22,522 nucleotides of DNA, from the NCBI GenBank assembly GCA_021796315.1, contig JAJYOH010000026.1:1-22522 (forward strand). Reading direction: 5' to 3'. This document shows positions 1-19,995 of the stretch, one piece after another. The DNA is from Chloroflexota bacterium. Lineage in GTDB: Bacteria > Chloroflexota > Anaerolineae > Anaerolineales > Villigracilaceae. Each line of letters begins with the position of its first letter. The first letter of the stretch is position 1. A program made the translations under genes and the position numbers. The notes beneath the pieces were generated by a model that ran no database searches, was not told the origin of the DNA, and saw only the letters and a list, made by a program, of their open reading frames with translations.

Positions 1-75
1 TGACCACCGCAACTCGCGCACCACTTCGTAGCACTTCTTGTCATCAACAAGATTTTTGATTTGGATGTTTAGCAT
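1..75 (-). CDS. IS1595/ISXO2-like transposase, N-terminal fragment (runs off left edge)
   Basis: Minus-strand reading from the ATG at 75-73 gives 25 uninterrupted codons to the window edge. The segment VDDKKCYEVVRELRW matches my memory of the N-terminus of IS1595 (ISXO2-like) transposases, where an 'xDExKCYexlrxLRWP' stretch precedes a CPHC zinc-binding module; that module would lie outside the window. A purine-rich AAGGG lies just before the ATG. The insertion-sequence end should lie between about 76 and 126, next to the terminator hairpin, but no terminal inverted repeat can be confirmed with only one end visible. The catalytic DDE-type residues cannot be seen. The family call rests on a short match, so a related zinc-ribbon protein is possible. 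Confidence 0.55.
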   Translation of the reverse strand, partial: MLNIQIKNLVDDKKCYEVVRELRWS

Positions 76-125
76 GCCCTTATCTTACCAACTTTTGAGC
101 AACTCCTTGAAACTACTCAAGAGCC

Positions 126-3750: not shown

Positions 3751-3779
3751 ATTATACAGTCGATTGCAGAAGTTGACAA
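3751..3779 (-). promoter_or_regulatory. Sigma-70 type promoter of the S1 gene
   Basis: On the minus strand: -35 TTGTCA (3779-3774), 17-bp spacer, consensus -10 TATAAT (3756-3751). The predicted start near 3744 gives a leader of about 28 nt containing GGAG before the ATG at 3716. Confidence 0.85.
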
Positions 3780-6101: not shown

Positions 6102-6192
6102 AAGACGGCAAAAGTATACCCGAATTTTTTAAAGGGCACTTTGCAAATATGCAACCGCTTTGAGCCGCAAAAGAATCAGTCGGGATTAAAGA

Positions 6193-6221
6193 TTGAGACA
6201 GGCGAAAGTAAATGGTATATT
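6193..6221 (+). promoter_or_regulatory. Promoter of the GH13-like gene
   Basis: -35 TTGAGA (6193-6198), 17-bp spacer, extended -10 TGgTATATT (6213-6221). The predicted +1 is near 6228, downstream of the ATG at 6222 and 3 nt before the ATG at 6231. This supports 6231 as the true start with an almost absent leader. Confidence 0.65.
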
Positions 6222-9210: not shown

Positions 9211-9564
9211 TTATTCAAGAATATCCTTCTTAAAAGTGAAGCCGATAAAAAACAGAACCGCAATCAGGGCCGGCACACCCGCCATTGTTAGAAATGCTCC
9301 CACATCAGGTCCGCCAACAGACACCATGTACCATACCGCGTAAATACCGAAACCAAATGTGCCGATCCATTCCCAGCGCCAGGCAAACGCCAAAATAATC
9401 GCCAGGAAAATGCTCCAACGAAGCTGCGCCAACAGACTAATAAATACATTCCAAGTTGGGTATGCGGCAAGAGTATTCAACACAGGCTTGCTAAGCAGGT
9501 AAATAAACAACAGGCCCAAAATACGCGGCGCCCCATACAGGGTTATCTTCAAGACATCTTTCAT
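9211..9564 (-). CDS. Small membrane protein, about four TM helices
   Basis: 117 aa from the ATG at 9564; in-frame starts also exist at 9591 (ATG) and 9609 (TTG). Hydrophobic segments cover ILGLLFIYLLSK, a central WSIFLAIILAFAW stretch, IGTFGFGIYAVWYMVS, and FLTMAGVPALIAVLFFIGF, followed by a short charged C-terminus (KKDILE). It resembles short hypothetical membrane proteins common in Anaerolineae (possibly the DUF7670 type), but I am not sure of the family. The 9564 start is preferred because the predicted promoter would start transcription near 9589, and GGGAT lies about 10 nt upstream of this ATG. It is convergent with the GH13-like gene and divergent from the PIG-L gene. No catalytic motif is visible. 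Confidence 0.65.
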   Translation of the reverse strand: MKDVLKITLYGAPRILGLLFIYLLSKPVLNTLAAYPTWNVFISLLAQLRWSIFLAIILAFAWRWEWIGTFGFGIYAVWYMVSVGGPDVGAFLTMAGVPALIAVLFFIGFTFKKDILE

Positions 9565-9595
9565 AAAGTCATCCCATAACCATAATAACATGGGA

Positions 9596-9623
9596 ATTTT
9601 AAGATGCAAACTCTGCCTGTCAA
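9596..9623 (-). promoter_or_regulatory. Promoter of the minus-strand small membrane protein gene
   Basis: On the minus strand: consensus -35 TTGACA (9623-9618), 16-bp spacer, -10 TAAAAT (9601-9596). It lies back-to-back with, and nearly overlaps, the plus-strand PIG-L promoter at 9633-9641. Confidence 0.65.
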
Positions 9624-9632
9624 GTGGTTCTG

Positions 9633-9641
9633 TGGTTAAAT
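9633..9641 (+). promoter_or_regulatory. Extended -10 promoter of the PIG-L gene (leaderless layout)
   Basis: TGgTTAAAT at 9633-9641. Exactly six bases separate the hexamer from the ATG at 9648, putting the start codon at predicted +1. No good -35 and no Shine-Dalgarno are visible. Confidence 0.5.
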
Positions 9642-9647
9642 ACTTTC

Positions 9648-10376
9648 ATGCGCTACATTTACCTATCCCCGCACCTTGACGATGCCATCCTTTCCGCAGG
9701 CGGATTAATTTATGAGCAGACCCAGTCTGGTGCTCCGGTTGAAATCTGGACTTTCATGTGCGGCTTTCCTCCCGAAGGCGAAATCTCACCGTTGGCGCAG
9801 AAGCTGCACACCGAATGGGGATTCTCGTCAGCCAGGGAAACCGTTGAAATGCGACGTTTGGAGAATTTGAATGCCACAGCTATTGTGGGCGCGAAAGCCG
9901 TCCAGTTTGATTTTTTGGATTGTATTTACCGCCGCGGCAAGAACGGCGACTGGCTGTATGCAGATAATATTTTCGATCCGCCCCACGCTGATGAAGCAGA
10001 CCTGCCCGCCGAGATCGCCAAGGTAATTGCGCCTCGCACCCAGCCGGACGATGTACTGGTTTGCCAACTAACCGTCGGCAACCACGTTGACCACGTCACC
10101 GTGCGAAAAGCCGCCGAGTTGCTGGAGCGTCCGCTGATTTATGATGCAGATATCCCGTATTTATTGAATCACCCTGACGAACTGAATCCAAAAACGGCCG
10201 GGATGAAAGCAAAAGCTCATTCGGTCTCCGAAGCCGGCCTAAAGGCGTGGCAGGAAGCGATAGCCGCGTACGCGTCCCAGATTGCGGTACTTTTTGAAAG
10301 TCCCGAATTGATGCAAGAAAAAATACAGGCTTATTGGTCCGAGCGCCGCGGTATCCGGTTTTGGGAATTTGAGTAG
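9648..10376 (+). CDS. PIG-L (LmbE-like) family deacetylase
   Basis: 242 aa, the usual family size. The zinc-site signature SPHLDDA (H9, D11, D12) is at the N-terminus, and the second part of the site, GNHVDHVTVRKA, follows in the C-terminal half. Family members are Zn-dependent N-deacetylases of N-acetylglucosaminyl compounds (lipid-linked sugars, mycothiol or bacillithiol intermediates); the substrate cannot be told from sequence. An in-frame upstream start at 9624 adds eight residues before the conserved beta strand and has no ribosome site. The ATG at 9648 fits both family alignments and the extended -10 promoter, which would make a leaderless mRNA. No signal peptide is present, so it is probably cytoplasmic. 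Transcribed alone. Confidence 0.88.
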   Translation: MRYIYLSPHLDDAILSAGGLIYEQTQSGAPVEIWTFMCGFPPEGEISPLAQKLHTEWGFSSARETVEMRRLENLNATAIVGAKAVQFDFLDCIYRRGKNGDWLYADNIFDPPHADEADLPAEIAKVIAPRTQPDDVLVCQLTVGNHVDHVTVRKAAELLERPLIYDADIPYLLNHPDELNPKTAGMKAKAHSVSEAGLKAWQEAIAAYASQIAVLFESPELMQEKIQAYWSERRGIRFWEFE

Positions 10377-10382
10377 ACAAAT

Positions 10383-10434
10383 AAGGGCGGGGCTTGATTC
10401 GCACCTGAATCCATGATATATTAAGCCCGCCTTT
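10383..10434 (+). repeat. Imperfect inverted repeat bracketing the greA promoter
   Basis: Arms AAGGGCGGGGCTT (10383-10395) and AAGCCCGCCTTT (10423-10434) pair with one bulged G and one G-T pair. The intervening 27 bases hold almost all of the greA promoter. In RNA from the PIG-L gene it could fold as a weak terminator (short U3 tail). Confidence 0.5.
10394..10422 (+). promoter_or_regulatory. Sigma-70 type promoter of greA
   Basis: -35 TTGATT (10394-10399), 17-bp spacer, -10 TATATT (10417-10422). The predicted start near 10429 gives a leader of about 70 nt before the ATG at 10500. Confidence 0.8.
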
Positions 10435-10454
10435 GGAATTCCAGAGGGACAACA

Positions 10455-10476
10455 TTGCATCCTATATAGGATGCAA
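10455..10476. promoter_or_regulatory. Perfect 22-bp palindrome in the greA leader (operator or hairpin)
   Basis: The half-site TTGCATCCTAT (10455-10465) is followed directly by its exact reverse complement (10466-10476). It lies about 26-47 bases after the predicted greA transcription start and 24 bases before the ATG. It could be a dimeric repressor operator or an mRNA hairpin with a TATATA loop. It has no U-tract, so it is not a classic terminator. Confidence 0.7.
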
Positions 10477-10499
10477 ATTCTTTAGTAGGGATGCCCACT

Positions 10500-10967
10500 A
10501 TGCCAACCAAATTCCTGACCAAGGAAGGCTTCCAAAAGCTTCAGGAAGAACTCGACCATCTGCGCACCGCAAAACGACAGGAAGTGGCCGAGCGCCTACA
10601 TGAAGCAATGGAAGGCGGGGAACTGATCGAGAATGCTGAATACGAGGCTGCCAAGAATGAACAGGCCTTTGTCGAGGGCCGCATTCAGGAACTTGAAATA
10701 CTGCTGGCCTCGGCGCATCTAATAGATGACGAAGACAAGAATCATAAAGGCGTCATCGCCATCGGTTCGACGGTAACCATTCAAGAACAAGGCTTCGAGG
10801 AAGAAAAATTTACCATCGTCGGTGCGGCGGAGGCCAACCCACGCGAAGGTAAGATATCGAACGAATCACCGATTGGCAAGGCCATTTTGGGCCATAAAAT
10901 CGGCGACGTGGTTCCGGTCGAGACGCCGAACGGCACATATAAAGTCAAGATACTAAAGGTCAAGTAA
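10500..10967 (+). CDS. greA: Transcription elongation factor GreA
   Basis: 155 aa (E. coli 158). The start ATG at 10500 is preferred over the in-frame ATG at 10491 because AGGG lies 9 nt upstream and the protein then begins MPTKFLTKEG, as in other GreA proteins. The N-terminal coiled coil (about residues 8-75) contains the tip segment ELIENAEYEAAK; E41 and E44 correspond to the acidic D41/E44 pair that coordinates Mg2+ at the RNA polymerase active site, with Asp replaced by Glu. The C-terminal FKBP-like domain ends SPIGKAILGHKIGDVVPVETP. GreA enters the secondary channel of RNA polymerase and stimulates transcript cleavage in backtracked complexes. It has its own promoter, a long leader with a 22-bp palindrome, and a strong terminator downstream. 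Confidence 0.95.
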   Translation: MPTKFLTKEGFQKLQEELDHLRTAKRQEVAERLHEAMEGGELIENAEYEAAKNEQAFVEGRIQELEILLASAHLIDDEDKNHKGVIAIGSTVTIQEQGFEEEKFTIVGAAEANPREGKISNESPIGKAILGHKIGDVVPVETPNGTYKVKILKVK

Positions 10968-10984
10968 GGGTTTATTTTTTCGCG

Positions 10985-11027
10985 GCCCCGCGCACCACGC
11001 CGCAAGGCGGGCCGCGCGGGGCTTTTT
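10985..11027 (+). terminator. Rho-independent terminator after greA
   Basis: GCCCCGCGC (10985-10993) pairs perfectly with GCGCGGGGC (11014-11022). An inner stem CGCC/GGCG (10998-11001 / 11006-11009) closes a GCAA tetraloop, and T5 follows at 11023-11027. It is 17 bp past the greA stop. Confidence 0.88.
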
Positions 11028-11046
11028 GTGTGCGGCTTTACCGCTT

Positions 11047-11067
11047 CCCTCTCCAAAATGGAGAGGG
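11047..11067 (+). promoter_or_regulatory. Hairpin overlapping the lysS ribosome-binding region
   Basis: CCCTCTCC (11047-11054) and GGAGAGGG (11060-11067) form a perfect 8-bp stem with an AAAAT loop. The right arm overlaps the purine-rich AGAGGGGGAG tract used as Shine-Dalgarno for the ATG at 11082. It may mask translation initiation, or may simply be a short dispersed palindrome. No clear promoter is visible between this and the greA terminator. Confidence 0.5.
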
Positions 11068-11081
11068 GGAGAAAAATCGAA

Positions 11082-12599
11082 ATGGCAGATTACAACTCTC
11101 TTGAAAAAATCCGTTTACAAAAAATAGAAGACCTGCGCGCGGAAGGCGTGGAGCCTTACCCCACGCGCGCCAGGCGCACGCACACCAGCGCGCAAGCCAT
11201 CGCTGAATTTGAAGCCGCGGAAAAAGAGGGTAAAGAAGTCAAAGCCACACTGGCCGGACGCATCCGCGCCGCGCGCGCCATGGGCAAGATTTCATTCGCC
11301 CACATCGAAGATGGTACAGGCAGGATCCAATTATTCTTCCGCATGAACGAGTTGACTCAGCCGCGCGTGGACTTCTTCAACAAGATGTTCGATATCGGCG
11401 ACTTCATCCAGGCTTCGGGAGTGATGTTCCGCACCAGGACCGGCGAGATCACGCTTCACGTCCACGACTTTAGCCTGCTCGCCAAATCCGTCAGCCCCCT
11501 GCCCGCTGACAAAGACGTGACCCAGGAAGATGGCACAGTTGTCCGTTACGCCGCCCTCGAAGACGCCGAACTGCGCGCCCGCCAGCGTTACGCAGACCTG
11601 GCCGTTAATCCCGAAGTGCGCGAGACGTTCCGCAAACGCGCCGCACTTGTCAAAGCTTTACGAACCTTCCTCGACGATCACGATTTTCTCGAAGTTGAAA
11701 CGCCCATCCTGCAACCGCTTTACGGAGGCGCGGCCGCGCGCCCGTTCGTGACGCATCACAACGAACTCGAACAGGATATGTATTTACGCATCTCGTTCGA
11801 ACTGTATCTCAAACGATTGCTGGTCGGAAATCTCGAACGCGTTTACGAGATCGGACGCGACTTCCGCAACGAGGGCGTCTCCTACAAACACAATCCGGAA
11901 TTTACCCAGCTTGAATTTTATTGGGCCTACGCGGACTATTTACAGGTCATGGAATTGACCGAGCAAATGGCGGCTTACGCCGCCGAAAAAGTGACCGGCT
12001 CGACCAAAGTTAAATTCGGCGAATACGAATTGGAATTCAAACCGCCCTGGCGCAGACTCGAAATGCGGCAGGGAATTCTGGAAGCCAGCGGCATTGACAT
12101 CGCCGAACACAAAACCGCCGCGGATTTATTCCAAGCCATCCGAACCAAACATCCAAATAAGACTCCCGATCCGCACGCAACGCGCGGCAAGCAGATCGAT
12201 TTTCTGCTCAGCGAATTCCTCGAGCCGACCTTGATCCAGCCGACCTTCCTCTACAATTATCCGCGCGATATTTCTCCGCTGGCAAAATCCATGCCCGGCG
12301 ATCCGCTGACCGTCGAGCGTTTCGAAGGTTACGTGGCCGGCTTTGAATTGTGCAACGCCTTCACCGAGTTGAACGATCCGCTCGATCAGGAACAGCGTTT
12401 CCTGGAAATGGGACGCGATTACACCGACAACGATGAAGAGAAACATCCGCTCGATGAAGATTATCTGCGTGCCATGCGTTATGGCATGCCGCCCAACGGC
12501 GGCTTCGGCATGGGCGTGGACCGTCTCGCCATGTTACTGACCAACAAACACTCCATCCGCGAAGTGTTGTTATTCCCGGCTTCAAGGAAACAAGAATAA
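11082..12599 (+). CDS. lysS: Lysyl-tRNA synthetase, class II
   Basis: 505 aa, normal for class II LysRS (E. coli 505). The N-terminal OB-fold anticodon-binding domain (about 45-150) contains LAGRIRAARAMGKISFAHIEDG. The catalytic domain shows motif 1 (DDHDFLEVETPIL), the LysRS-specific GGAAARPFVTHHN, motif 2 (GRDFRNEGVSYKHNPEFTQLE) and motif 3 (GGFGMGVDRLAMLLT). It charges tRNA-Lys with lysine in the cytoplasm. The ATG at 11082 is chosen because MADYNSLEKIRLQKIEDL matches the family N-terminus and a GGGGGAG tract lies about 11 nt upstream. Longer in-frame starts at 11028 and 11058 lie in or next to the greA terminator and hairpin. A DUF3054 gene follows 5 bp after the stop and is probably co-transcribed. 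Confidence 0.96.
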   Translation: MADYNSLEKIRLQKIEDLRAEGVEPYPTRARRTHTSAQAIAEFEAAEKEGKEVKATLAGRIRAARAMGKISFAHIEDGTGRIQLFFRMNELTQPRVDFFNKMFDIGDFIQASGVMFRTRTGEITLHVHDFSLLAKSVSPLPADKDVTQEDGTVVRYAALEDAELRARQRYADLAVNPEVRETFRKRAALVKALRTFLDDHDFLEVETPILQPLYGGAAARPFVTHHNELEQDMYLRISFELYLKRLLVGNLERVYEIGRDFRNEGVSYKHNPEFTQLEFYWAYADYLQVMELTEQMAAYAAEKVTGSTKVKFGEYELEFKPPWRRLEMRQGILEASGIDIAEHKTAADLFQAIRTKHPNKTPDPHATRGKQIDFLLSEFLEPTLIQPTFLYNYPRDISPLAKSMPGDPLTVERFEGYVAGFELCNAFTELNDPLDQEQRFLEMGRDYTDNDEEKHPLDEDYLRAMRYGMPPNGGFGMGVDRLAMLLTNKHSIREVLLFPASRKQE

Positions 12600-12604
12600 T
12601 TCTC

Positions 12605-12982
12605 GTGAAAAAATATCTTCCTTTCATTGGCGATATCCTTGCACACGCCATCGTCACCATTATCGGATTCACAACTCACGGCGAAGCAAACACTTCCTTC
12701 CTGCCGCGCATGGCCGCCGTATTTTTCCCACTTATCATTTCCTGGTTCGCCATCGCCCCGTGGTTTGAACTCTTCAATTCAGAAATCACATCCAACCCAA
12801 AACAACTCTGGCGGCCTGCGCTGGCAATGATATTTGCCGGGCCGCTGGCTGTTGTGATACGCGGATTAATTCTTAATGCACCTATCATCCCGATCTTTGC
12901 AGTTGTATTCAGCGCAACCTCCGCGCTTGGAATGACGATCTGGCGCTGGATTTATATTTTGATCTCGAAAAGAATCAAATAA
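12605..12982 (+). CDS. DUF3054 family membrane protein
   Basis: 125 aa with a GTG start 5 bp after lysS. Four hydrophobic segments are visible: FIGDILAHAIVTIIGF, MAAVFFPLIISWFAIAPWFELF, ALAMIFAGPLAVVIRGLIL and PIFAVVFSATSALGMTIWRWIYIL. The GD near the N-terminus, the PLAVVIRG segment and the C-terminal WRW fit DUF3054, a small membrane family of unknown function known mainly from Actinobacteria and Chloroflexota. The family call is from memory of the pattern. The nearest Shine-Dalgarno-like AAGGA is about 16 nt upstream, inside lysS, so translation may depend on coupling with lysS. A long inverted repeat follows the stop. Confidence 0.75.
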   Translation: MKKYLPFIGDILAHAIVTIIGFTTHGEANTSFLPRMAAVFFPLIISWFAIAPWFELFNSEITSNPKQLWRPALAMIFAGPLAVVIRGLILNAPIIPIFAVVFSATSALGMTIWRWIYILISKRIK

Positions 12983-13002
12983 TCCACCGACCAAAAAATC
13001 AA

Positions 13003-13050
13003 AAGACGCAAAGCGGCAAACCAGAAAGAATCTTCGCGGCTTTGCGTCTT
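13003..13050 (+). repeat. 12-bp inverted repeat, dispersed-repeat-like, possible terminator
   Basis: AAGACGCAAAGC (13003-13014) and its exact reverse complement GCTTTGCGTCTT (13039-13050) flank 24 bases. It follows the lysS-DUF3054 unit and precedes the sigma-factor promoter. No immediate T-run follows the right arm (a TTTTT occurs at 13062). The 'gacgcaaagc' word resembles a dispersed intergenic repeat, but only one copy is in this window. Confidence 0.55.
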
Positions 13051-13075
13051 CGCGTTAAATCTTTTTAATCGCCCA

Positions 13076-13084
13076 TGATAAAAT
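13076..13084 (+). promoter_or_regulatory. Extended -10 promoter of the ECF sigma gene (leaderless layout)
   Basis: TGaTAAAAT at 13076-13084, with six bases before the ATG at 13091, so predicted +1 is the A of ATG. A weak -35-like TTAAAT is at 13055-13060 (18-bp spacer). There is no Shine-Dalgarno. Confidence 0.6.
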
Positions 13085-13090
13085 ATCTAC

Positions 13091-13696
13091 ATGGACGAAA
13101 CCACCCTCATCAAAGAAGCCCAGAGCGGGGACCTGGACGCATTCAATACTCTCGTCCTTGCTTATCAGGATACACTTTTCAACACGGCCTTGCGTATTCT
13201 CGGCGATGAAGATCAAGCCGCCGACGCCACACAGGATGCGTTCCTTTCCGCGTTCAAAAGCATCAACTCATTTCGCGGCGGATCGTTCAAAGCCTGGCTC
13301 ATGCGCACCGTCACCAACGCCTGCTACGATGAACTGCGGCGCAGGAAACGCCGCCCCACCACGCCGCTCGAGCCCGACACCAGCGACGGCGACGAAATGG
13401 ATTCGCCGCGCTGGCTGGCCGATAGATCCATGAGCCCTGAGCAAAAGCTCGAAGCCGACGAACTCGAACACGCCATCCAACATTGTCTCGATGCGCTTCC
13501 CAGCGACTTCCGCACAGTGGTTGTGCTCGCCGATATTCAAGGTCTCGATTACACAGAAGTTGCCAGCGCCACACGCGTCCCACTTGGCACGATCAAATCA
13601 CGTTTGGCGCGCGCACGTCTTCGTCTGCGCGAATGTTTACAGGGCTTCTGGGAACTTCTGCCTGCTTCACTGCGTCTGGATAAGGAGCCGCAATGA
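13091..13696 (+). CDS. ECF-type RNA polymerase sigma-70 family factor
   Basis: 201 aa, usual for ECF factors. Region 2 (about residues 23-90) includes YQDTLFNTALRILGD, DATQDAFLSAFKSINSFRG and FKAWLMRTVTNACYDELRRRKRR. A variable acidic linker follows (about 93-115). Region 4 (about 128-185) includes LDALPSDFRTVVVLADIQG and the helix-turn-helix YTEVASATRVPLGTIKSRLARAR. It should direct RNA polymerase to a small regulon when released by its anti-sigma factor. Its stop overlaps the ATG of the anti-sigma gene (ATGA), so the two are translationally coupled. The promoter layout suggests a leaderless message. The -10 upstream looks like a housekeeping sequence, so autoregulation is not evident. Confidence 0.93.
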   Translation: MDETTLIKEAQSGDLDAFNTLVLAYQDTLFNTALRILGDEDQAADATQDAFLSAFKSINSFRGGSFKAWLMRTVTNACYDELRRRKRRPTTPLEPDTSDGDEMDSPRWLADRSMSPEQKLEADELEHAIQHCLDALPSDFRTVVVLADIQGLDYTEVASATRVPLGTIKSRLARARLRLRECLQGFWELLPASLRLDKEPQ

Positions 13697-14364
13697 CTTC
13701 CTTTCGAGACGTTGAACTTCTTTCTACTTATTTAGACGGACAATTAAGTCCGTCTGATTCTGCGCGACTGGAATCCCGCCTCTCTTCCGACCCAAACCTG
13801 CGCGCCGCCATGGATGATTTACGCTCAGCCCGAGGCTTGCTCCGCAAACTGCCGCAACGACGCGCTCCGCGCAACTTCACACTCACTCCAAAAATGGCCG
13901 GAATCAAAGCGCCCACACCGCGCGCTTATCCAACCTTGAGATTCGCAACCGTGCTGGCGACCCTGCTCTTCATCGCAACCTTCGCCATCAATGGGCTTGC
14001 TCCCGCTGCGACTTCCAGTTTCGCCGCGGCTCCAGCCCCTGCTCTTGGAATGGGCGGCGGCGGAGCAGAATCCGTTCAGGGACAAGCTCCCGTTGCAACC
14101 GAAGCGCCCATGCGCCCATTTGCAGCAATGTCGCCAACAGAAGTGACGCCATCCGCAGATCAGGCCATCACACCGACTGAGTCGCCATCCACTAAGAGCC
14201 TGGTACCCGAATTGAGTAATGGCGCCCCGGCCCGGGTCCAGAATGAAGCGCCTGTGCCGTTCGTCTGGCAAATCGGGCTGGCAATCATCGCCATTCTGCT
14301 CGGCGCATCCGCCTGGCTGCTGCGTCGTTCGAGCGAAAGAAAATTCCGAAAACAATGGAAATAA
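13693..14364 (+). CDS. Membrane anti-sigma factor (cognate of the upstream ECF sigma)
   Basis: 223 aa. The N-terminal ~60 residues (DVELLSTYLDGQLSP ... RLESRLSSDPNLRAAMDDL) match the helical anti-sigma domain that occludes ECF factors; no HxxxCxxC zinc motif is present. A transmembrane helix lies at about 82-103 (FATVLATLLFIATFAINGL). A Pro/Ala/Thr-rich, presumably extracytoplasmic, stretch follows, then a second transmembrane helix near the C-terminus (WQIGLAIIAILLGASAWLL) and a basic cytoplasmic tail. Two membrane spans with a low-complexity outer loop suggest signal reception at the envelope, perhaps by regulated proteolysis. It overlaps the sigma gene by 4 bases and the Nudix gene by 10 bases. 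Confidence 0.85.
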   Translation: MTSFRDVELLSTYLDGQLSPSDSARLESRLSSDPNLRAAMDDLRSARGLLRKLPQRRAPRNFTLTPKMAGIKAPTPRAYPTLRFATVLATLLFIATFAINGLAPAATSSFAAAPAPALGMGGGGAESVQGQAPVATEAPMRPFAAMSPTEVTPSADQAITPTESPSTKSLVPELSNGAPARVQNEAPVPFVWQIGLAIIAILLGASAWLLRRSSERKFRKQWK

Positions 14365-14837
14365 AATATTGCACGCGCTGCGGAGCGCAAATGGAATACG
14401 CCGAGCGCTTCGGGCGCGTGCGCCCCATTTGCCCGCAATGCGGCTGGATACATTTCACCAATCCGAAAGTTGCCGCGGCCGTTCTGGTTGAACAGGATGG
14501 CCGCGTGCTGTTGGTGCGGCGCGTGAACGAACCTTTCCGCGGACTGTGGACGCTGCCCGCCGGGTTCATTGACGAAGGTGAAGACCCCGCCCGCGCCGCC
14601 GAGCGCGAATGTGTTGAAGAGACCAACCTGACAATTCATTCAACAAAAGTATTGGATGTGATCGCCGGGCGCGAACATCCGCGCGGCGCTGACTTTATTA
14701 TCGTTTATCAGGGCGAAATTATCAGCGGTGAATTACGCGCCGGAGACGATGCAGACCTGGCCGATTGGTTCGATTATCACAACCTGCCCCCGCTCGCGTT
14801 CCGTGCGACTCAGGTTATCCTTGCATCCCGCCATTAA
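14355..14837 (+). CDS. Nudix hydrolase with N-terminal zinc ribbon
   Basis: 160 aa. The N-terminal zinc ribbon has CxxC pairs at C6/C9 and C26/C29, as in NADH pyrophosphatase (NudC)-like proteins. The Nudix box spans residues 70-92: G-x5-E-x7-RE-x2-EE with G70, E76, R84, E85, E88 and E89 all present; the Gly near the end of the motif is Asn (EETNL). It should hydrolyse a nucleoside diphosphate-X compound with a divalent metal; the substrate is uncertain, and it is shorter than full NudC. Its ATG lies inside the 3' end of the anti-sigma gene, so it is the third gene of the sigma operon. No separate promoter or ribosome site is obvious. Confidence 0.92.
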   Translation: MEIKYCTRCGAQMEYAERFGRVRPICPQCGWIHFTNPKVAAAVLVEQDGRVLLVRRVNEPFRGLWTLPAGFIDEGEDPARAAERECVEETNLTIHSTKVLDVIAGREHPRGADFIIVYQGEIISGELRAGDDADLADWFDYHNLPPLAFRATQVILASRH

Positions 14838-14862
14838 AAATATCGGCTCTCCGGGGTTTGCC

Positions 14863-14874
14863 GTGACGCGTCAC
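14863..14874. promoter_or_regulatory. 12-bp perfect palindrome upstream of the lipoprotein promoter
   Basis: GTGACGCGTCAC at 14863-14874, about 35 bp upstream of the predicted promoter. TTTG and CAAA flank it almost symmetrically. It is a possible transcription-factor site; no partner copy occurs before the paralogous gene. Weak evidence. Confidence 0.3.
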
Positions 14875-14899
14875 CAAATGTGCTGATTTATCACGGCGA

Positions 14900-14927
14900 T
14901 TCCCAATGAGCCTTATTTCTTTATAAT
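14900..14927 (+). promoter_or_regulatory. Promoter of the first lipoprotein paralogue
   Basis: Consensus -10 TATAAT (14922-14927) with a poor -35 TTCCCA (14900-14905, 16-bp spacer). The sequence from the -10 to the start codon closely resembles that before the second paralogue (TATAAT, TATAAAC, AGAGGAGA). Confidence 0.55.
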
Positions 14928-14956
14928 TTTATAAACCGAATCCAGAGGAGACTATC

Positions 14957-15571
14957 ATGAAAACTCGTGGTTATACATTTTTACTTGGTTTTGCAGTCTT
15001 CCTCATGGCTATTGGAATCGCTTGTAATATCGGCGTAACCCCTGCCGTTCAACCCATACAGCAACAACCACAATTCACACCGACTCCACCAAACAGTAAC
15101 ATCAATGACACTGGCAACAGCGGCGCCCTTGTCACTTTCACCGACCAGAATAAGTTCTATCAAATTGAAATTCCCGGTGACTGGATACATACATCCAATA
15201 GCGGCGCTTACGCTTATCTTGATCAATTCAAATCACCCGATGGGTACGCTTTGGTTGAGAACATCAGTTACCACGACGGGAAACCATTCACGGGCGCTGA
15301 CAACAGCCGAATGGCTCTTCATTTGCTACACCAGTTTTACAGCAGCGCCGGCAAGGAAGGCGACGTTCGCATCAGCGACGACAAGATTATGCAGGACGGC
15401 ACAGAACGCCTCACCTGGACTTCCAAAGGCCGAGGCTTTTCGGGCCTATCTTATTTTAGGGTTAGAGACGGCGTAGATTTCATGATGTTTACGGTCGAGT
15501 GGGCTAACGATCACCAAAGCCAATACGCAGATATTTTGGATAAAATATACACCAGCTACAAAATCCCTTAA
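14957..15571 (+). CDS. Secreted lipoprotein, PsbP-like fold (paralogue 1)
   Basis: 204 aa. The lipoprotein signal ends at lipobox IGIAC (modified Cys at about 23), followed by a Gln/Pro/Thr/Asn-rich linker to about residue 52. The ~150-residue C-terminal domain starts VTFTDQNKFYQIEIPGDWIH and ends DILDKIYTSYKIP; the pattern 'yxixiPxdW...' and the final helix resemble PsbP / DUF1795-like domains (inference). A strong GAGGAG ribosome site lies 6-8 nt before the ATG. About 70% of its mature domain matches the next gene by eye, so the pair arose by tandem duplication. The function is unknown; it is probably anchored to the outer face of the cytoplasmic membrane. Confidence 0.8.
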   Translation: MKTRGYTFLLGFAVFLMAIGIACNIGVTPAVQPIQQQPQFTPTPPNSNINDTGNSGALVTFTDQNKFYQIEIPGDWIHTSNSGAYAYLDQFKSPDGYALVENISYHDGKPFTGADNSRMALHLLHQFYSSAGKEGDVRISDDKIMQDGTERLTWTSKGRGFSGLSYFRVRDGVDFMMFTVEWANDHQSQYADILDKIYTSYKIP

Positions 15572-15614
15572 TCTGAACGAGTTATTTCGGGTTCGATAAT
15601 TTCAGGTTTTATTT

Positions 15615-15751
15615 AATATTACAGCGCAAAGTCGCGAGAAAGCCCTGCAGCCTTGAGCAGAATCCGCCAATCTACGCTAATCTGCGCGAATAAAATTAGC
15701 GAAGATTAGCGGACTCTGACCCTGCCCACACAAACCTTGCGCTGTAACATT
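15615..15751. repeat. Nested palindromic (MITE/REP-like) element between the lipoprotein paralogues
   Basis: Outer inverted repeats at 15615-15629 and 15737-15751 match at 14 of 15 bases (core TTACAGCGCAA / TTGCGCTGTAA is perfect). Inside them, a second inverted repeat at 15663-15683 and 15693-15713 matches at 18 of 21 bases (TCCGCxAATCTxCGCTAAT) around a 9-base loop. The 137-bp unit has no coding sequence and looks like a small non-autonomous mobile or dispersed element. It fills most of the 273-bp gap; the remainder is the downstream promoter. Confidence 0.65.
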
Positions 15752-15793
15752 ATTGCCGGAGAAAAATCAACCGAAAGTGCCAGCCTGTTTTAC

Positions 15794-15822
15794 TTGCATC
15801 TGATTATTTATTTTTATATAAT
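15794..15822 (+). promoter_or_regulatory. Promoter of the second lipoprotein paralogue
   Basis: -35 TTGCAT (15794-15799), 17-bp spacer, -10 TATAAT (15817-15822). The leader has GAGGAG before the ATG at 15851. Confidence 0.75.
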
Positions 15823-15850
15823 CGTATAAACTAACCTAGAGGAGATGCTC

Positions 15851-16486
15851 ATGAAAACCCGTAGTAATTTGTTTTTAATTGGCTTTATGGCTTTTGTGTT
15901 GACAGTAGGACTTGCGTGTAGTGCGCTTTCCGGTACCCCTACACAACCCGCGCCGCAACAACCGCAGCCCCAGCAACCGCCTGCACCGACAACCCAGCCG
16001 AACGATAACAGCAGCAACAGCAATACTGGCAGCAGCAGCGCATTGGTCACTTTCACCGACCAGAACAAGTTCTATCAAATCGATTTGCCCGGCGATTGGA
16101 TACATAAATCTGACAGCGGCACCCACTATTACATCGATCAATTTAAATCCCCCGATGGAAACGCTCTGGTCGAGAATATCGTTTACAACGACGGCACGCC
16201 ATTTACAGGCTCACAAAACGGGCAATTTGCCCTTCAATTGCTCCACCAGTTTTATAGCAACACGGGCAAGGAAGGCGACATCCACGTCAGCGATGATAGT
16301 ATTCAAAAAGATGGCAGCGAGCGTCTCACCTGGACATCATCAGGCGGCGGTTACTCCGGCCTATCGTACTTTGAGGTTCGGGACAAGTTGAATTTCCTGA
16401 TGTTCACTGTTGAGTGGTCGAACGATTATAAAGACACCTATCTCGATACGCTCAATCAAATCATTGCCAGCTACGTAGTCCCGTAA
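15851..16486 (+). CDS. Secreted lipoprotein, PsbP-like fold (paralogue 2)
   Basis: 211 aa. The signal ends at lipobox VGLAC (modified Cys at about 23), followed by a Pro/Gln/Asn/Ser-rich linker of about 40 residues containing Ser-Asn repeats. The C-terminal domain aligns closely with the preceding paralogue (LVTFTDQNKFYQIDLPGDWIH, DQFKSPDG, LLHQFYSNTGKEGDIHVSDD, ERLTWTS, GLSYFEVRD, FTVEWSND). The start at 15851 is chosen over the in-frame ATG at 15845 because GAGGAG ends 6 nt before 15851 and the paralogue's start aligns there. It has its own promoter and a perfect hairpin terminator. Function unknown; the two copies differ mostly in the linker. Confidence 0.8.
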   Translation: MKTRSNLFLIGFMAFVLTVGLACSALSGTPTQPAPQQPQPQQPPAPTTQPNDNSSNSNTGSSSALVTFTDQNKFYQIDLPGDWIHKSDSGTHYYIDQFKSPDGNALVENIVYNDGTPFTGSQNGQFALQLLHQFYSNTGKEGDIHVSDDSIQKDGSERLTWTSSGGGYSGLSYFEVRDKLNFLMFTVEWSNDYKDTYLDTLNQIIASYVVP

Positions 16487-16500
16487 CTACAAACAACGAC

Positions 16501-16532
16501 ATGAGACCGGTTTGAAACCGGTCTCATTGTTT
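16501..16532 (+). terminator. Hairpin terminator after the second lipoprotein gene
   Basis: ATGAGACCGGTTT (16501-16513) and AAACCGGTCTCAT (16515-16527) are exact reverse complements around a single G. In RNA the loop would open to about 3-5 nt. A short U-rich tail TGTTT follows. It lies 14 bp past the stop codon and overlaps the -35 of the next gene. Confidence 0.75.
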
Positions 16533-16554
16533 AATAATTCACCTGTGCTACAAT
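16527..16554 (+). promoter_or_regulatory. Extended -10 promoter of the MEMO1-family gene (leaderless layout)
   Basis: -35-like TTGTTT (16527-16532), 16-bp spacer, extended -10 TGcTACAAT (16546-16554). Six bases separate the hexamer from the ATG at 16561, so predicted +1 is the A of ATG. No Shine-Dalgarno is seen. Confidence 0.6.
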
Positions 16555-16560
16555 CATTTT

Positions 16561-17403
16561 ATGAACGTTGATCTTCGTCCCTCGCCCATCGCCGGGCTTT
16601 GGTATGAGGGGAACCCCAACTCTCTCGCCCGCAGTGTTGATCATTACATGGATAATGCACAACTTCCCAAATTGAACGGGGATGTGATGGCGGTCATTGC
16701 GCCACACGCGGGACACATTTATTCGGGCCCCGTTGCCGGATATGCTTTCTCCGCGCTTCGCGGCCGGGACCCGGAACTGGTCGCCGTTTTATCGCCTTTT
16801 CATAACTACCACAACGCTCCGTTTCTCACTTCTACACATAGTGGCTACGCGACGCCGCTCGGCCCTATTCAAATTAACCACGCCGCTGTCGATGCTTTGG
16901 ACGCCGAACTCAAATCCACGCTCGGCATCGGCCTGACGCGCATCGCCAACGACCCCGAACATTCTCTCGAAATCGAATTGCCTTTTTTGCAACGCGCTCT
17001 TAAATCAAACTGGAATCTTTTGCCAGTCATGTCGCGCGCGCATGACCCAAAGCTCGCCCACGGACTCGGCCTCGCCCTCGCAAAAATCCTAAAAGATAAA
17101 AATGCCATCCTCGTCGCAAGCACAGACTTGTCACATTACTACGATCAAAAAACTGCCAATCTTCTGGATGGGAATATGCTGGCAGAAATCGAATCCTTCA
17201 TCCCGGAAAAGGTTCTCGAAGCCGAAGCGGCCGGCAAAGGTTTCGCCTGCGGACTCGGCGCACTAACCTCCGTGATGTGGGCGGCGCGCGAACTCGGCGC
17301 AGACAAAGTCCAGATTTTGCATCACGCCACCTCCGGCGATGTGACCGGTGATTGCAGCGCAGTTGTCGGCTACGGCGCGGCGGCGATTTTAAGAACGAAA
17401 TAA
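16561..17403 (+). CDS. MEMO1-family protein (AmmeMemoRadiSam system protein B)
   Basis: 280 aa, the normal family size. Conserved segments: IAPHAGHIYSGPVAGYAF (H49), LSPFHNYHNAPF (H81), DPEHSLEIELPFLQ, ASTDLSHYYD and GFACGLGAL (C230). H49, H81 and this Cys correspond to the metal-ligand triad H49/H81/C244 of human MEMO1; the fold is related to class III extradiol dioxygenases. In many bacteria and archaea MEMO genes sit with AMMECR1 and radical-SAM genes, but neither partner is in this window, so this copy is isolated. The biochemical role of bacterial members is not established. The start follows the leaderless promoter and there is no Shine-Dalgarno. Confidence 0.92.
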   Translation: MNVDLRPSPIAGLWYEGNPNSLARSVDHYMDNAQLPKLNGDVMAVIAPHAGHIYSGPVAGYAFSALRGRDPELVAVLSPFHNYHNAPFLTSTHSGYATPLGPIQINHAAVDALDAELKSTLGIGLTRIANDPEHSLEIELPFLQRALKSNWNLLPVMSRAHDPKLAHGLGLALAKILKDKNAILVASTDLSHYYDQKTANLLDGNMLAEIESFIPEKVLEAEAAGKGFACGLGALTSVMWAARELGADKVQILHHATSGDVTGDCSAVVGYGAAAILRTK

Positions 17404-17461: not shown

Positions 17462-19120
17462 ATGACCGCATTTGTTCAACTTGCCATCAACGTCCCGTCC
17501 GTCGCGGGCGTTTTTGATTATGCCCTGCCGGAATCTTTGGCCGGGCAAATCGGCGTTGGGCATTTGGTTATCGCGCCGTTCGGAAAACAAACTGTGCAGG
17601 GAATCGTTCTGCGTTTTATTGACCAGCCTTCCGTCCCCGAAACAAAAGAAATTATCGAGCTGGTCGATTCGCAGCCGGTTCTGACGCAGGCACAAATTTT
17701 TCTCGCCGAATCTTTAGCCGAGTCCACACTTTCATCGCTTGCATCCATCGTCGGATTATTTTTGCCGCCCGGATTAAATCAACAGGCCGATGTTCTTTAC
17801 GAATTACGCAACACGCAACAAGCGCCTGAAAACGAAATACAAAAACGATTACTAAATCTGCTCAACACACGCGGCCCTCTGCGCGGCCGCCAGATCGACC
17901 GCCATTTCGCAAAAGTGGATTGGCGCAAAACCGCAAATGCACTCGTTAGGCGCGGCGTGCTCACGTCGAAATCCATTCTGCCGCCATCTACCATCCGGCC
18001 AAAATTTATCCGCACCGCGCAATTGGCTGTCGCGCCGGAAATCGCCGAAGAAGCGATGTCAATGCTTGGCAAACCGCAAACCATCGAACGCCGACAAAAA
18101 GCCCTACGATTTCTCATCAAGCAAACGGACGCGATCAACGTCTCGTGGGTTTACGCCGAAAGCGGATGCAACATTTCTGACCTGCAAGAATTGGAAGAAC
18201 GCCAGCTCATTATTTTGCGCGAGACGGAAATTTTCCGCGACCCATTGGAAAAAATTGAAAATCGGGAATTTGGAATCGGGAAATTGGTGTTGACCGATGA
18301 ACAGCAAAATGCCTGGCAAAAAGTTGATGAAGCGTTTCGTCAACTTGCCGAAGGAAAATCTGTCAAACCGTTTTTGCTTCAAGGCGTAACCGGCTCCGGC
18401 AAAACGGAAATTTATTTGCGCGCCACCGAAGAAATTTTGCAGCGCGGAAAGCAAGCCATCATCCTCGTCCCCGAAATCTCGCTCACGCCGCAAACCGTCC
18501 GCAGATTCATGGCGCGCTTTCCCGGCCAGGTCGGCATCCTGCATTCCAAACTTTCCGAGGGCGAACGTTACGATACGTGGCGGCGCGCCCGCGCGGGTCA
18601 ACTCAAGATCATCATCGGTCCGCGCAGCGCGCTATTTGCGCCGCTTCCAAACATTGGCTTGATCGTTGCCGATGAATGCCACGACAATTCTTACTATCAA
18701 AGCGAGCCGCCGTTTTATCATGCTGTCAGCGCCGCGCAAACGTATGCAAAAATTTGCGGCGCGCTGTGCATTTTGGGATCAGCGACGCCGAGCCTCATTC
18801 AACGGAATCAAGCTGAAGTCGGGGAAAGTGTCCGCCTGGAACTGACTCAACGCATCAGCACGGACCCGGTAACGGATTCCGCTAACAATTTGGATCTGCC
18901 CCCCGATCCACATCGTGGACATGCGCGAAGAATTGAAATCCGGCAACCGCGAAATCTTCAGCCGCGAATTAACGGATGCGCTCGGAAAAACTTTATCGCG
19001 CGGCGAACAGGCGATTTTATTTTTGAACCGGCGCGGAACCGCAACTTATGTTTTTTGCCGCGATTGCGGACACGTGGTGAAATGCCCGCGCTGCGACACG
19101 CCGATGACGGCCCATGTTGA
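17462..19120 (+). CDS. priA: Primosomal helicase PriA, N-terminal part (frame lost at the C-run at 18899-18904)
   Basis: PriA restarts collapsed replication forks as a 3'-5' DNA helicase. This frame encodes the N-terminal DNA-binding domain (QLAINVPSVAGVFDYALPE ... GHLVIAPFGKQTVQGIV), a winged-helix-like region, and helicase lobe 1: Walker A GVTGSGKTE, the Walker-B segment VADECHD (usually DEEH; here Glu is replaced by Cys), and LGSATPSL. It is PriA-like to about codon 479. A run of six C at 18899-18904 then shifts the frame, and the last ~70 residues to the stop at 19120 are out-of-frame and meaningless. The correct sequence continues in the overlapping frame (18915-19994). With one C fewer the product would be one 843-aa PriA. 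A 14-bp tandem repeat (18260-18287) adds extra residues before the Walker A region. No clear ribosome site is seen before the ATG. Confidence 0.88.
   Translation: MTAFVQLAINVPSVAGVFDYALPESLAGQIGVGHLVIAPFGKQTVQGIVLRFIDQPSVPETKEIIELVDSQPVLTQAQIFLAESLAESTLSSLASIVGLFLPPGLNQQADVLYELRNTQQAPENEIQKRLLNLLNTRGPLRGRQIDRHFAKVDWRKTANALVRRGVLTSKSILPPSTIRPKFIRTAQLAVAPEIAEEAMSMLGKPQTIERRQKALRFLIKQTDAINVSWVYAESGCNISDLQELEERQLIILRETEIFRDPLEKIENREFGIGKLVLTDEQQNAWQKVDEAFRQLAEGKSVKPFLLQGVTGSGKTEIYLRATEEILQRGKQAIILVPEISLTPQTVRRFMARFPGQVGILHSKLSEGERYDTWRRARAGQLKIIIGPRSALFAPLPNIGLIVADECHDNSYYQSEPPFYHAVSAAQTYAKICGALCILGSATPSLIQRNQAEVGESVRLELTQRISTDPVTDSANNLDLPPDPHRGHARRIEIRQPRNLQPRINGCARKNFIARRTGDFIFEPARNRNLCFLPRLRTRGEMPALRHADDGPC
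18260..18287 (+). repeat. 14-bp tandem repeat inside priA
   Basis: AATCGGGAATTTGG (18260-18273) is followed directly by AATCGGGAAATTGG (18274-18287), 13 of 14 identical. It lies in frame between the third-domain region and the Walker A region of PriA, coding for NREFGIGKL-like residues that have no counterpart I recall in PriA. Confidence 0.6.
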
Positions 19121-19994
19121 AAGTTCCAGGTCAAAGATTGAGGGAAAAGAATCTTTCAACCTTCAACCTTCAACCCTTCGACAAACTCAGGGCGACGCCT
19201 TTAAACTTCTTTGTCATCGTTGCGGATATACGCGAGCTATGCCGAAAAAATGTCCCGAATGCGGAAATGAAAATATTCGCGCCTATGGACTCGGCAGCGA
19301 AAAAGTGGAAAGCGAAGTGCAGAAATTTTTTCCGCGTGCAAAAACTTTACGCTGGGATTGGGAAACGACGCGCGAGAAGAACGCACACGAAATCATCCTG
19401 GCGCATTTTTCATCGGGGCACGCCGACGTTTTGATCGGCACGCAGATGCTGGCAAAAGGACTCGACCTGCCGCGCGTCACGTTGGTTGGAATCGTTTTCG
19501 CGGATGTTGGTTTGCACCTGCCTGACCCGTTTGCATCGGAAAGAGTCTTTCAATTGCTCACGCAAGTCGCAGGCCGCGCCGGTCGCTCGTCACGCGGCGG
19601 ACGCGTGGTGCTGCAAACTTTTTCACCGGAACATTATGTCATCCAGGCCGCGGCCAAACATGATGTCAATGGTTTTTATCAACAGGAAATTTCGCAGCGC
19701 AAACGCCTGGGTTATCCGCCGTTCGCTCGCTTGGCGCGGCTGGAATTCCGCCACCGGGATTCTTCGGCCGCCGAAAAAGAAGCGCGGAAATTCGCGGCAA
19801 AACTTCAAAGACAAATTGATGATTCAAATTTGAAGCAGGCAAATTTAATTGGCCCCGCGCCGAGTTTCTTCTCGAAGCTCAACGGCGAATTTCGCTGGCA
19901 GATCATTTTACGTGCGCTCAATCCCGTTTCGATTCTGCGCGGGAAAATATCCACCGGATGGCGGGTTGAGGTAGACCCGGTAAGTTTGCTATAA
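18915..19994 (+). CDS. priA: Primosomal helicase PriA, C-terminal part (+1 frame relative to N-terminal part)
   Basis: This reading frame continues PriA after the C-run: without the extra C, the junction would read LPPIHIVDMREELKSGN, a typical PriA segment. It holds helicase lobe 2 (LSRGEQAILFLNRRG, LIGTQMLAKGLDLPRVTLVGI, LLTQVAGRAGRSSRGG) and eight zinc-binding Cys in four CxxC pairs (CRDC, CPRC, CHRC, CPEC), then the C-terminal domain (GYPPFARLARL ... RWQIILRA). The ATG at 18915 is an internal Met with no ribosome site, so this is not an independent gene. The zinc module contains about 28 extra residues encoded by a repeat-like insertion (about 19116-19202). The stop codon overlaps the -10 of the next gene. 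Confidence 0.88.
   Translation: MDMREELKSGNREIFSRELTDALGKTLSRGEQAILFLNRRGTATYVFCRDCGHVVKCPRCDTPMTAHVESSRSKIEGKESFNLQPSTLRQTQGDAFKLLCHRCGYTRAMPKKCPECGNENIRAYGLGSEKVESEVQKFFPRAKTLRWDWETTREKNAHEIILAHFSSGHADVLIGTQMLAKGLDLPRVTLVGIVFADVGLHLPDPFASERVFQLLTQVAGRAGRSSRGGRVVLQTFSPEHYVIQAAAKHDVNGFYQQEISQRKRLGYPPFARLARLEFRHRDSSAAEKEARKFAAKLQRQIDDSNLKQANLIGPAPSFFSKLNGEFRWQIILRALNPVSILRGKISTGWRVEVDPVSLL
19116..19202 (+). repeat. Dispersed-repeat-like insertion inside the priA zinc module
   Basis: Begins with GTTGAAAG (19116-19123), paired to CTTTCAAC (19153-19160), then repeats CTTCAAC and ends in CCCTTCGACAAACTCAGGG (19174-19192), a word I know as a common dispersed palindromic repeat in environmental bacterial genomes. 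It is in frame (87 bp) and codes for about 28 residues (ESSRSKIEGKESFN then STLRQTQGD) between the second and third CxxC pairs, where PriA normally has a short loop. Confidence 0.65.
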
Positions 19995-19995
19995 T
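19966..19995 (+). promoter_or_regulatory. Promoter of the DUF6159 gene, overlapping the priA stop
   Basis: -35 TTGAGG (19966-19971), 18-bp spacer, extended -10 TGcTATAAT (19987-19995). The priA stop codon (19992-19994) lies within the -10. Predicted +1 is near 20002, giving a ~26-nt leader with AAGGAGATA before the ATG at 20028. Confidence 0.8.

Follow-up and report, generated by a model that had tools for sequence, protein, structure and literature searches.

Predicted leaderless starts from -10 elements close to the start codon, alongside Shine-Dalgarno-led genes, in a Villigracilaceae bacterium

Promoter elements and gene starts in the window

The window analyzed here is a stretch of 22,522 nucleotides (nt) from a Chloroflexota bacterium of the class Anaerolineae and family Villigracilaceae (assembly GCA_021796315.1, contig JAJYOH010000026.1, positions 1 to 22,522 of the forward strand). 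It carries genes for a PIG-L protein, an ECF sigma factor and a MEMO1 protein, identities that were all confirmed by a Pfam scan, and each of the three is preceded by an extended -10 element, TGn followed by a hexamer. An earlier note on this DNA claimed that the three genes share one spacing and lack a Shine-Dalgarno (SD) site. Reading the sequence directly, we found exactly 6 nt between hexamer and ATG in every case, which would place the ATG at +1, and no SD-like site in the sequence upstream of any of the three starts. The features discussed below are collected in Table 1.

A scan of both strands of the window for TGNTWNNNT, six bases and ATG gave four matches against 1.42 expected from shuffles, with at least four in 4/100 shuffles. 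The number of motifs is therefore only mildly unusual; their placement is not chance. The motif stands on 4 of the 18 listed ATG gene starts and on 0 of the 712 other ATGs (Fisher 2.6e-7). That list includes the open reading frame (ORF) at the left edge of the window, added after the scan had pointed there, and leaves out hyp132; when hyp132 is included and the left-edge ORF is not, the motif is found at 3/18 starts and 1/712 others (p 5e-5).

The left-edge match spans positions 90-73 of the minus strand (hexamer through ATG). Relatives of this ORF are encoded in 3 of 61 family genomes, at identities of 92%, 61% and 62% across 21-25 residues, and all three (L285-L287) have TGATAAnAT, 6 nt and then ATG. 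The IS1595 zinc ribbon, PF12760, was found in the two relatives scanned, above the cut-off in L286 (E 2e-10) and just under it in L285 (2.1e-5). Because its relatives match this domain, the gene that shares the 6-nt architecture at the left edge is probably mobile.

Table 1. Promoter elements, genes and a hairpin of the window, with supporting observations
Feature	Position	Strand	Remarks
Left-edge ORF, first 25 codons, runs off window	1..75	-	relatives carry IS1595-type zinc ribbon
Left-edge ORF extended -10 element TGGTAAGAT	82..90	-	6-nt spacing; both-strand scan; 3/3 relatives found alike
S1 TATAAT	3751..3756	-	34 nt before ATG, with GGAG
Histidine kinase TATACT	6113..6118	-	spacing 11 to ATG 6101
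GH13 TGgTATATT	6213..6221	+	spacing 9 to ATG 6231, 0 to in-frame ATG 6222; start uncertain
PIG-L extended -10 element TGgTTAAAT	9633..9641	+	read in sequence; pattern scan; ortholog comparison
PIG-L gene	9648..10376	+	ATG at predicted +1, 6 nt past hexamer; PF02585 E 2.2e-13
greA TGATATATT	10414..10422	+	long leader, weak SD
ECF sigma extended -10 element TGaTAAAAT	13076..13084	+	6 nt to ATG 13091; scan; orthologs
ECF sigma factor gene	13091..13696	+	ATG at predicted +1; PF04542, PF08281
PsbP1 TATAAT	14922..14927	+	29 nt before ATG, with AGAGGAG; leadered in 6 relatives where found
PsbP2 TATAAT	15817..15822	+	28 nt before ATG, with AGAGGAG; SD-like site in 6 relatives where found
Terminator-like hairpin between PsbP2 and MEMO1	16501..16527	+	12 pairs
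MEMO1 extended -10 element TGcTACAAT	16546..16554	+	6 nt to ATG 16561; 71 orthologs
MEMO1 gene	16561..17403	+	ATG at predicted +1; PF01875 E 4.4e-54
DUF6159 TATAAT	19990..19995	+	32 nt before ATG, with AAGGAG; GGAG before ATG in 10/10 relatives where found

Spacing in orthologs and in the genomes of relatives

Protein matches among 120 family genomes numbered 106 for MEMO1, 111 for PIG-L and 120 for ECF sigma, and 30 loci of each were read. The window MEMO1 protein matched four genome loci, the best at 74% identity. Two of the nearest relatives found, G240 and G252, carry MEMO1, ECF sigma and PIG-L on a single contig. All 30 fetched PIG-L orthologs and all 30 fetched ECF orthologs have an ATG at the residue where the window protein starts. 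The best-scoring -10 lies at spacing 5-8 in 23/30 MEMO1, 18/30 PIG-L and 24/30 ECF orthologs, as compared with means of 3.0-3.2 of 30 in shuffled upstream DNA. In this scoring L068 was taken from its second ATG (spacing 10), its first ATG being at 7, and in the MEMO1 orthologs L049 and L050 it is a GTG codon that stands at leaderless spacing. PIG-L orthologs such as L084, L101 and L104 share an AGTkTACATGA-like element, possibly an operator, roughly 45-55 nt ahead of the start codon.

The MEMO1 comparison was extended to 72 genes, the window gene and 71 orthologs (the 30 plus 41 further, from the 106 genomes with a match). Of these, 44 are classed as leaderless, with spacing 5 in one, 6 in 35 and 7 in eight. 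An SD-like site precedes 24 others; TANAAT stands at spacing 16 to 40 in 20 of these and was not found in four. L066, classed with the SD genes, is without TANAAT and has an upstream gene close by. The remaining four belong to neither class: L073 has its -10 at spacing 10 and no SD, L247 and L255 have no TANAAT, and L054 was classed from an ATG that falls within the promoter, the following ATG having spacing 7. Only L073 among the 72 has a spacing of 8 to 15, and many of the SD-led genes still carry the GTGCTAnAAT box, followed by extra bases and the SD. MEMO1 thus appears to flip between two modes, and intermediate spacings are very rare. Since the mode labels require 10 changes on the 72-row MEMO1 protein tree, against a mean of 23.9 when shuffled, the mode is inherited, with several changes along the way.

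At genome scale, we analyzed sampled stretches of two relatives, G001 and G240, with 926 called genes, 608 promoter-proximal and 247 operon-internal. TANAAT at spacing 6-9 precedes 38 of the 608 promoter-proximal genes and 2 of the 247 operon-internal ones, while between 1 and 10 genes fall in each of the four-base windows covering 0-5 and 10-21, and 17 in the one at 26-29, the leadered peak. An SD-like site is present at 5 of the 38 genes with TANAAT at 6-9 and at 45 of the 56 with TANAAT at 20-36 (p 6e-11). The TG before the hexamer, found at all three named window genes, occurs in 12 of these 38 leaderless genes, and the mean match to the -35 element is 2.74 of 6 in leaderless genes, 2.90 in shuffled DNA and 2.69 in leadered genes.

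An expectation-maximization (EM) fit on the same two genomes, started from TGNTATAAT and left free in spacing, peaked at 6 and 7 and recovered TGnTAtAAT. It assigned 47.2 leaderless genes, or 7.8% of the 608, where shuffled sequence gave a mean of 0.4% and a largest value of 1.0%. The leaderless share of all 926 called genes is ~5%, probably a lower bound because the start calls are imperfect. The fit on G003 (97 genes) found 12 confident leaderless genes, 0 with an SD-like site, which agrees but is small. Two further fits were discarded: on G001 alone EM drifted to the SD motif rather than the -10, and on G041 plus G193 it gave a poor motif.

Counts of TATAAT-N-ATG in 100 genomes of the class were 3211 for N1-4, 5173 for N5-8, 4015 for N9-12 and 3970 for N25-28, and in 78 of the 100 the N5-8 count exceeded the mean of N1-4 and N9-12. 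The genome-wide enrichment that the earlier note proposed to look for is thus found in relatives, both in the sampled genes and across the class. A phylum count (121 genomes) covered a single spacing and supports no phylum claim. TATAAT is commoner at 9-12 than at 5-8 before ATG in G193, G092 and G041, and full TATAAT listings place the mode at 10 in G193 (20/33 at 9-11) and at 7 in G158. Among 173 sampled promoter-proximal genes of G041 and G193, however, TANAAT stands at 7-8 in nine and at 9-11 in five, with TANNNT commonest at 10, so that a lineage-specific move to spacing 10 is blurred.

SD-led genes and neighboring features

Normal leaders with ribosome sites had been ascribed to S1, greA, DUF6159 and both PsbP-like lipoprotein genes. 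This description fits S1, DUF6159 and the PsbP-like pair, which combine a -10 at 28-34 nt with an SD; the leader of greA is long and its SD weak. In the syntenic stretches of 13 relatives, AGAGGAG or AAGGAG is kept at the PsbP-like genes, and greA, found in 13 of 13, retains its hairpin-bearing leader; these stretches yielded no S1. The coexistence of two initiation modes, as the earlier note had it, extends to the relatives, where greA, DUF6159 and the PsbP-like genes are leadered wherever found. As far as tested, the leaderless and SD-led modes appear to be kept gene by gene.

The hairpin of the greA leader is perfect, lies at window positions 10455-10476 and recurs in each of the 13 relatives that yielded greA. 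Both sides have changed in 5 of its 9 pairs, loop lengths differ among relatives, and 98.4% of the cells in the alignment are paired. Its covariation of 0.471 (0.176 shuffled) was equaled in 0/500 shuffles, but the number of double-change pairs was reached in 38/500 shuffles and the number of pair types in 419/500. No Rfam match was found in the window. The hairpin may be a structured leader or an operator.

The PsbP-like lipoprotein genes are two tandem paralogs (14957-16486) with similar promoters and SD leaders, and a Pfam scan of the first protein, PsbP1 only, gave no match. Divergent from PIG-L, the minus strand carries TTGACA-16-TAAAAT (9589-9623), with an ATG at 9591, 4 nt past the TAAAAT, whose ORF ends at 9211 and is possibly another near-leaderless gene.

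Two genes proposed to be near-leaderless are the GH13 and histidine kinase genes. The GH13 start is uncertain because an in-frame ATG directly abuts the hexamer, and in the two GH13 relatives found the first residues do not align with those of the window protein. For the histidine kinase, no ortholog with a match from residue 15 or earlier was found in the syntenic stretches of relatives.

The gene priA, which comes after MEMO1, occupies two overlapping frames (ORFs 17462-19120 and 18915-19994, together 17462-19994) with six consecutive C at 18899-18904, and the frame overlap could be a sequencing indel. The second ORF contains a repeat-like stretch with cccttcgacaaactcagggc at about 19110-19205. 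In seven relatives (L162-L168, from G229, G124, G257, G303, G317, G245 and G223) a -10-like box stands 6-8 nt upstream of the priA ATG, a box that the window priA lacks.

Leaderless initiation, rival readings and known systems

We consider it very likely that PIG-L, ECF sigma, MEMO1 and the left-edge ORF have leaderless starts from sigma-70-type promoters and that SD-led genes operate in the same cell. A sigma-70-type -10 element would lie so near the coding region of these genes as to make RNA polymerase begin at the initial base of the start codon, give or take one or two bases, and the resulting mRNA would be leaderless. Initiation would proceed from the 5'-terminal AUG (rarely GUG) with initiator tRNA and would need no SD, while other genes of the cell would be translated from SD leaders. 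A leaderless route by 70S ribosomes or by IF2 is known from other bacteria. We infer the +1 position and the ribosomal route from the DNA; the leaderless reading of the earlier note gains support from a spacing that is kept in orthologs of all three genes and of the left-edge ORF and enriched in promoter-proximal genes.

Several observations weigh against leaderless starts. The best -10 falls outside spacing 5-8 in 7 MEMO1, 12 PIG-L and 6 ECF orthologs of 30 each. The 12 PIG-L cases comprise four at spacing 4 (three of which reflect a shifted register within GGTAAAAAT), one at 3 and seven at 29-38, and since the upstream -10-like site outscores the near one in these seven, a second, leadered PIG-L transcript is possible. 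With the looser TANNNT pattern the counts give no excess in G001 (34 vs 31, 38 and 39) and little in G240 (32 vs 20, 27 and 24), spacing 5-8 is not above its neighbors in 22 of the 100 class genomes, and gene starts in the sampled relatives come from a simple codon-based caller that is imperfect.

The seven PIG-L orthologs would also fit a reading in which the near -10-like boxes are minor promoters, with the main transcripts beginning further upstream and carrying SD-free leaders. Such leaders may exist, as 267 of the 514 genes with neither -10 placement in G001 and G240 have no SD-like site. However, an SD-like site accompanies a distant -10 in MEMO1 orthologs, and those without an SD have their -10 at 5-7; the concentration of TANAAT at 6-9 relative to the windows on either side is likewise at odds with minor promoters, which we regard as improbable. 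An upstream bias that is not a promoter element could in principle also come from AT-rich or U-rich contacts of the ribosome near the start codon, by way of weak structure or binding of S1; PMC5397173 discusses such biases in genes that lack an SD. The signal, however, takes the form of a hexamer in which T, A and T are position-specific, often with TG ahead and at narrow spacing, and SD-led MEMO1 genes often retain the GTGCTAnAAT box further upstream, which makes ribosome contact a very improbable source. The modest window count and the loose TANNNT count, which is without clear excess, would fit a reading in which AT-rich upstream DNA gives -10-like hexamers near ATGs by chance; gene-start placement, sharp spacing, ortholog conservation and near absence from operon-internal genes contradict this, and we give chance and composition almost no credence.

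Leaderless initiation might also come with a constraint on leader length. Very short leaders would be selected against, and genes would jump between leaderless (5-7) and SD-leadered (>=16) spacing on one kept promoter; leaderless spacing would lie near 10 in certain members of the class (G193 and, judging from counts, G041 and G092), through another start choice of RNA polymerase or ribosomes that accept leaders of 3-5 nt. We hold this proposal to be unlikely, the more so as the shift is less clear in the sampled genes of G041 and G193.

A close likeness is the '-10-motif' of Deinococcus-Thermus, TANNNT about 6-7 bp before the ORF with leaderless mRNA and with genes led by ribosome-binding sites alongside; mutation and reporters show that leaderless expression is driven by this motif (PMC12340547). 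Nearly one third of D. radiodurans genes are of this kind, as against ~5% of called genes in our two relatives, where the motif is TAnAAT, often with TG ahead. The main text of that paper does not contain 'Chloroflex', though its domain-wide figure S7, by phylum, may include Chloroflexota. Zheng et al. 2011 (PMC3160421) reported leaderless genes in 4/12 Chloroflexi genomes, at 4.0-5.7% of genes, to which our ~5% is close. Their TA-led genes show the same signal, of TAtaaT type, with TG before the box in several low-GC genomes; that work covered RefSeq genomes of 2010, whereas ours adds orthologs, 100 class genomes and gene-by-gene switching. In mycobacteria, transcription start site mapping, ribosome profiling and N-terminal peptides showed that RTG at +1 suffices (PMC4633059); there too leaderless and leadered peaks are seen and +1 is favored over +2 to +5, but leaderless transcripts are far more frequent. 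The anti-SD CCUCCUUU is listed for Anaerolineae in PMC10783764. No 5'-end map of Chloroflexota or Anaerolineae was present in the literature searched, most subscription papers lying outside the search.

The starts described here would be a further case of a known bacterial initiation mode, well supported by comparison. They add gene-level evolutionary evidence for that mode in a large, mostly uncultured group, within which MEMO1 forms a natural series: a single gene that occurs in either initiation mode, often with an unchanged promoter box. The distance from the -10 can moreover help to place start codons in metagenome-assembled genomes of Anaerolineae.

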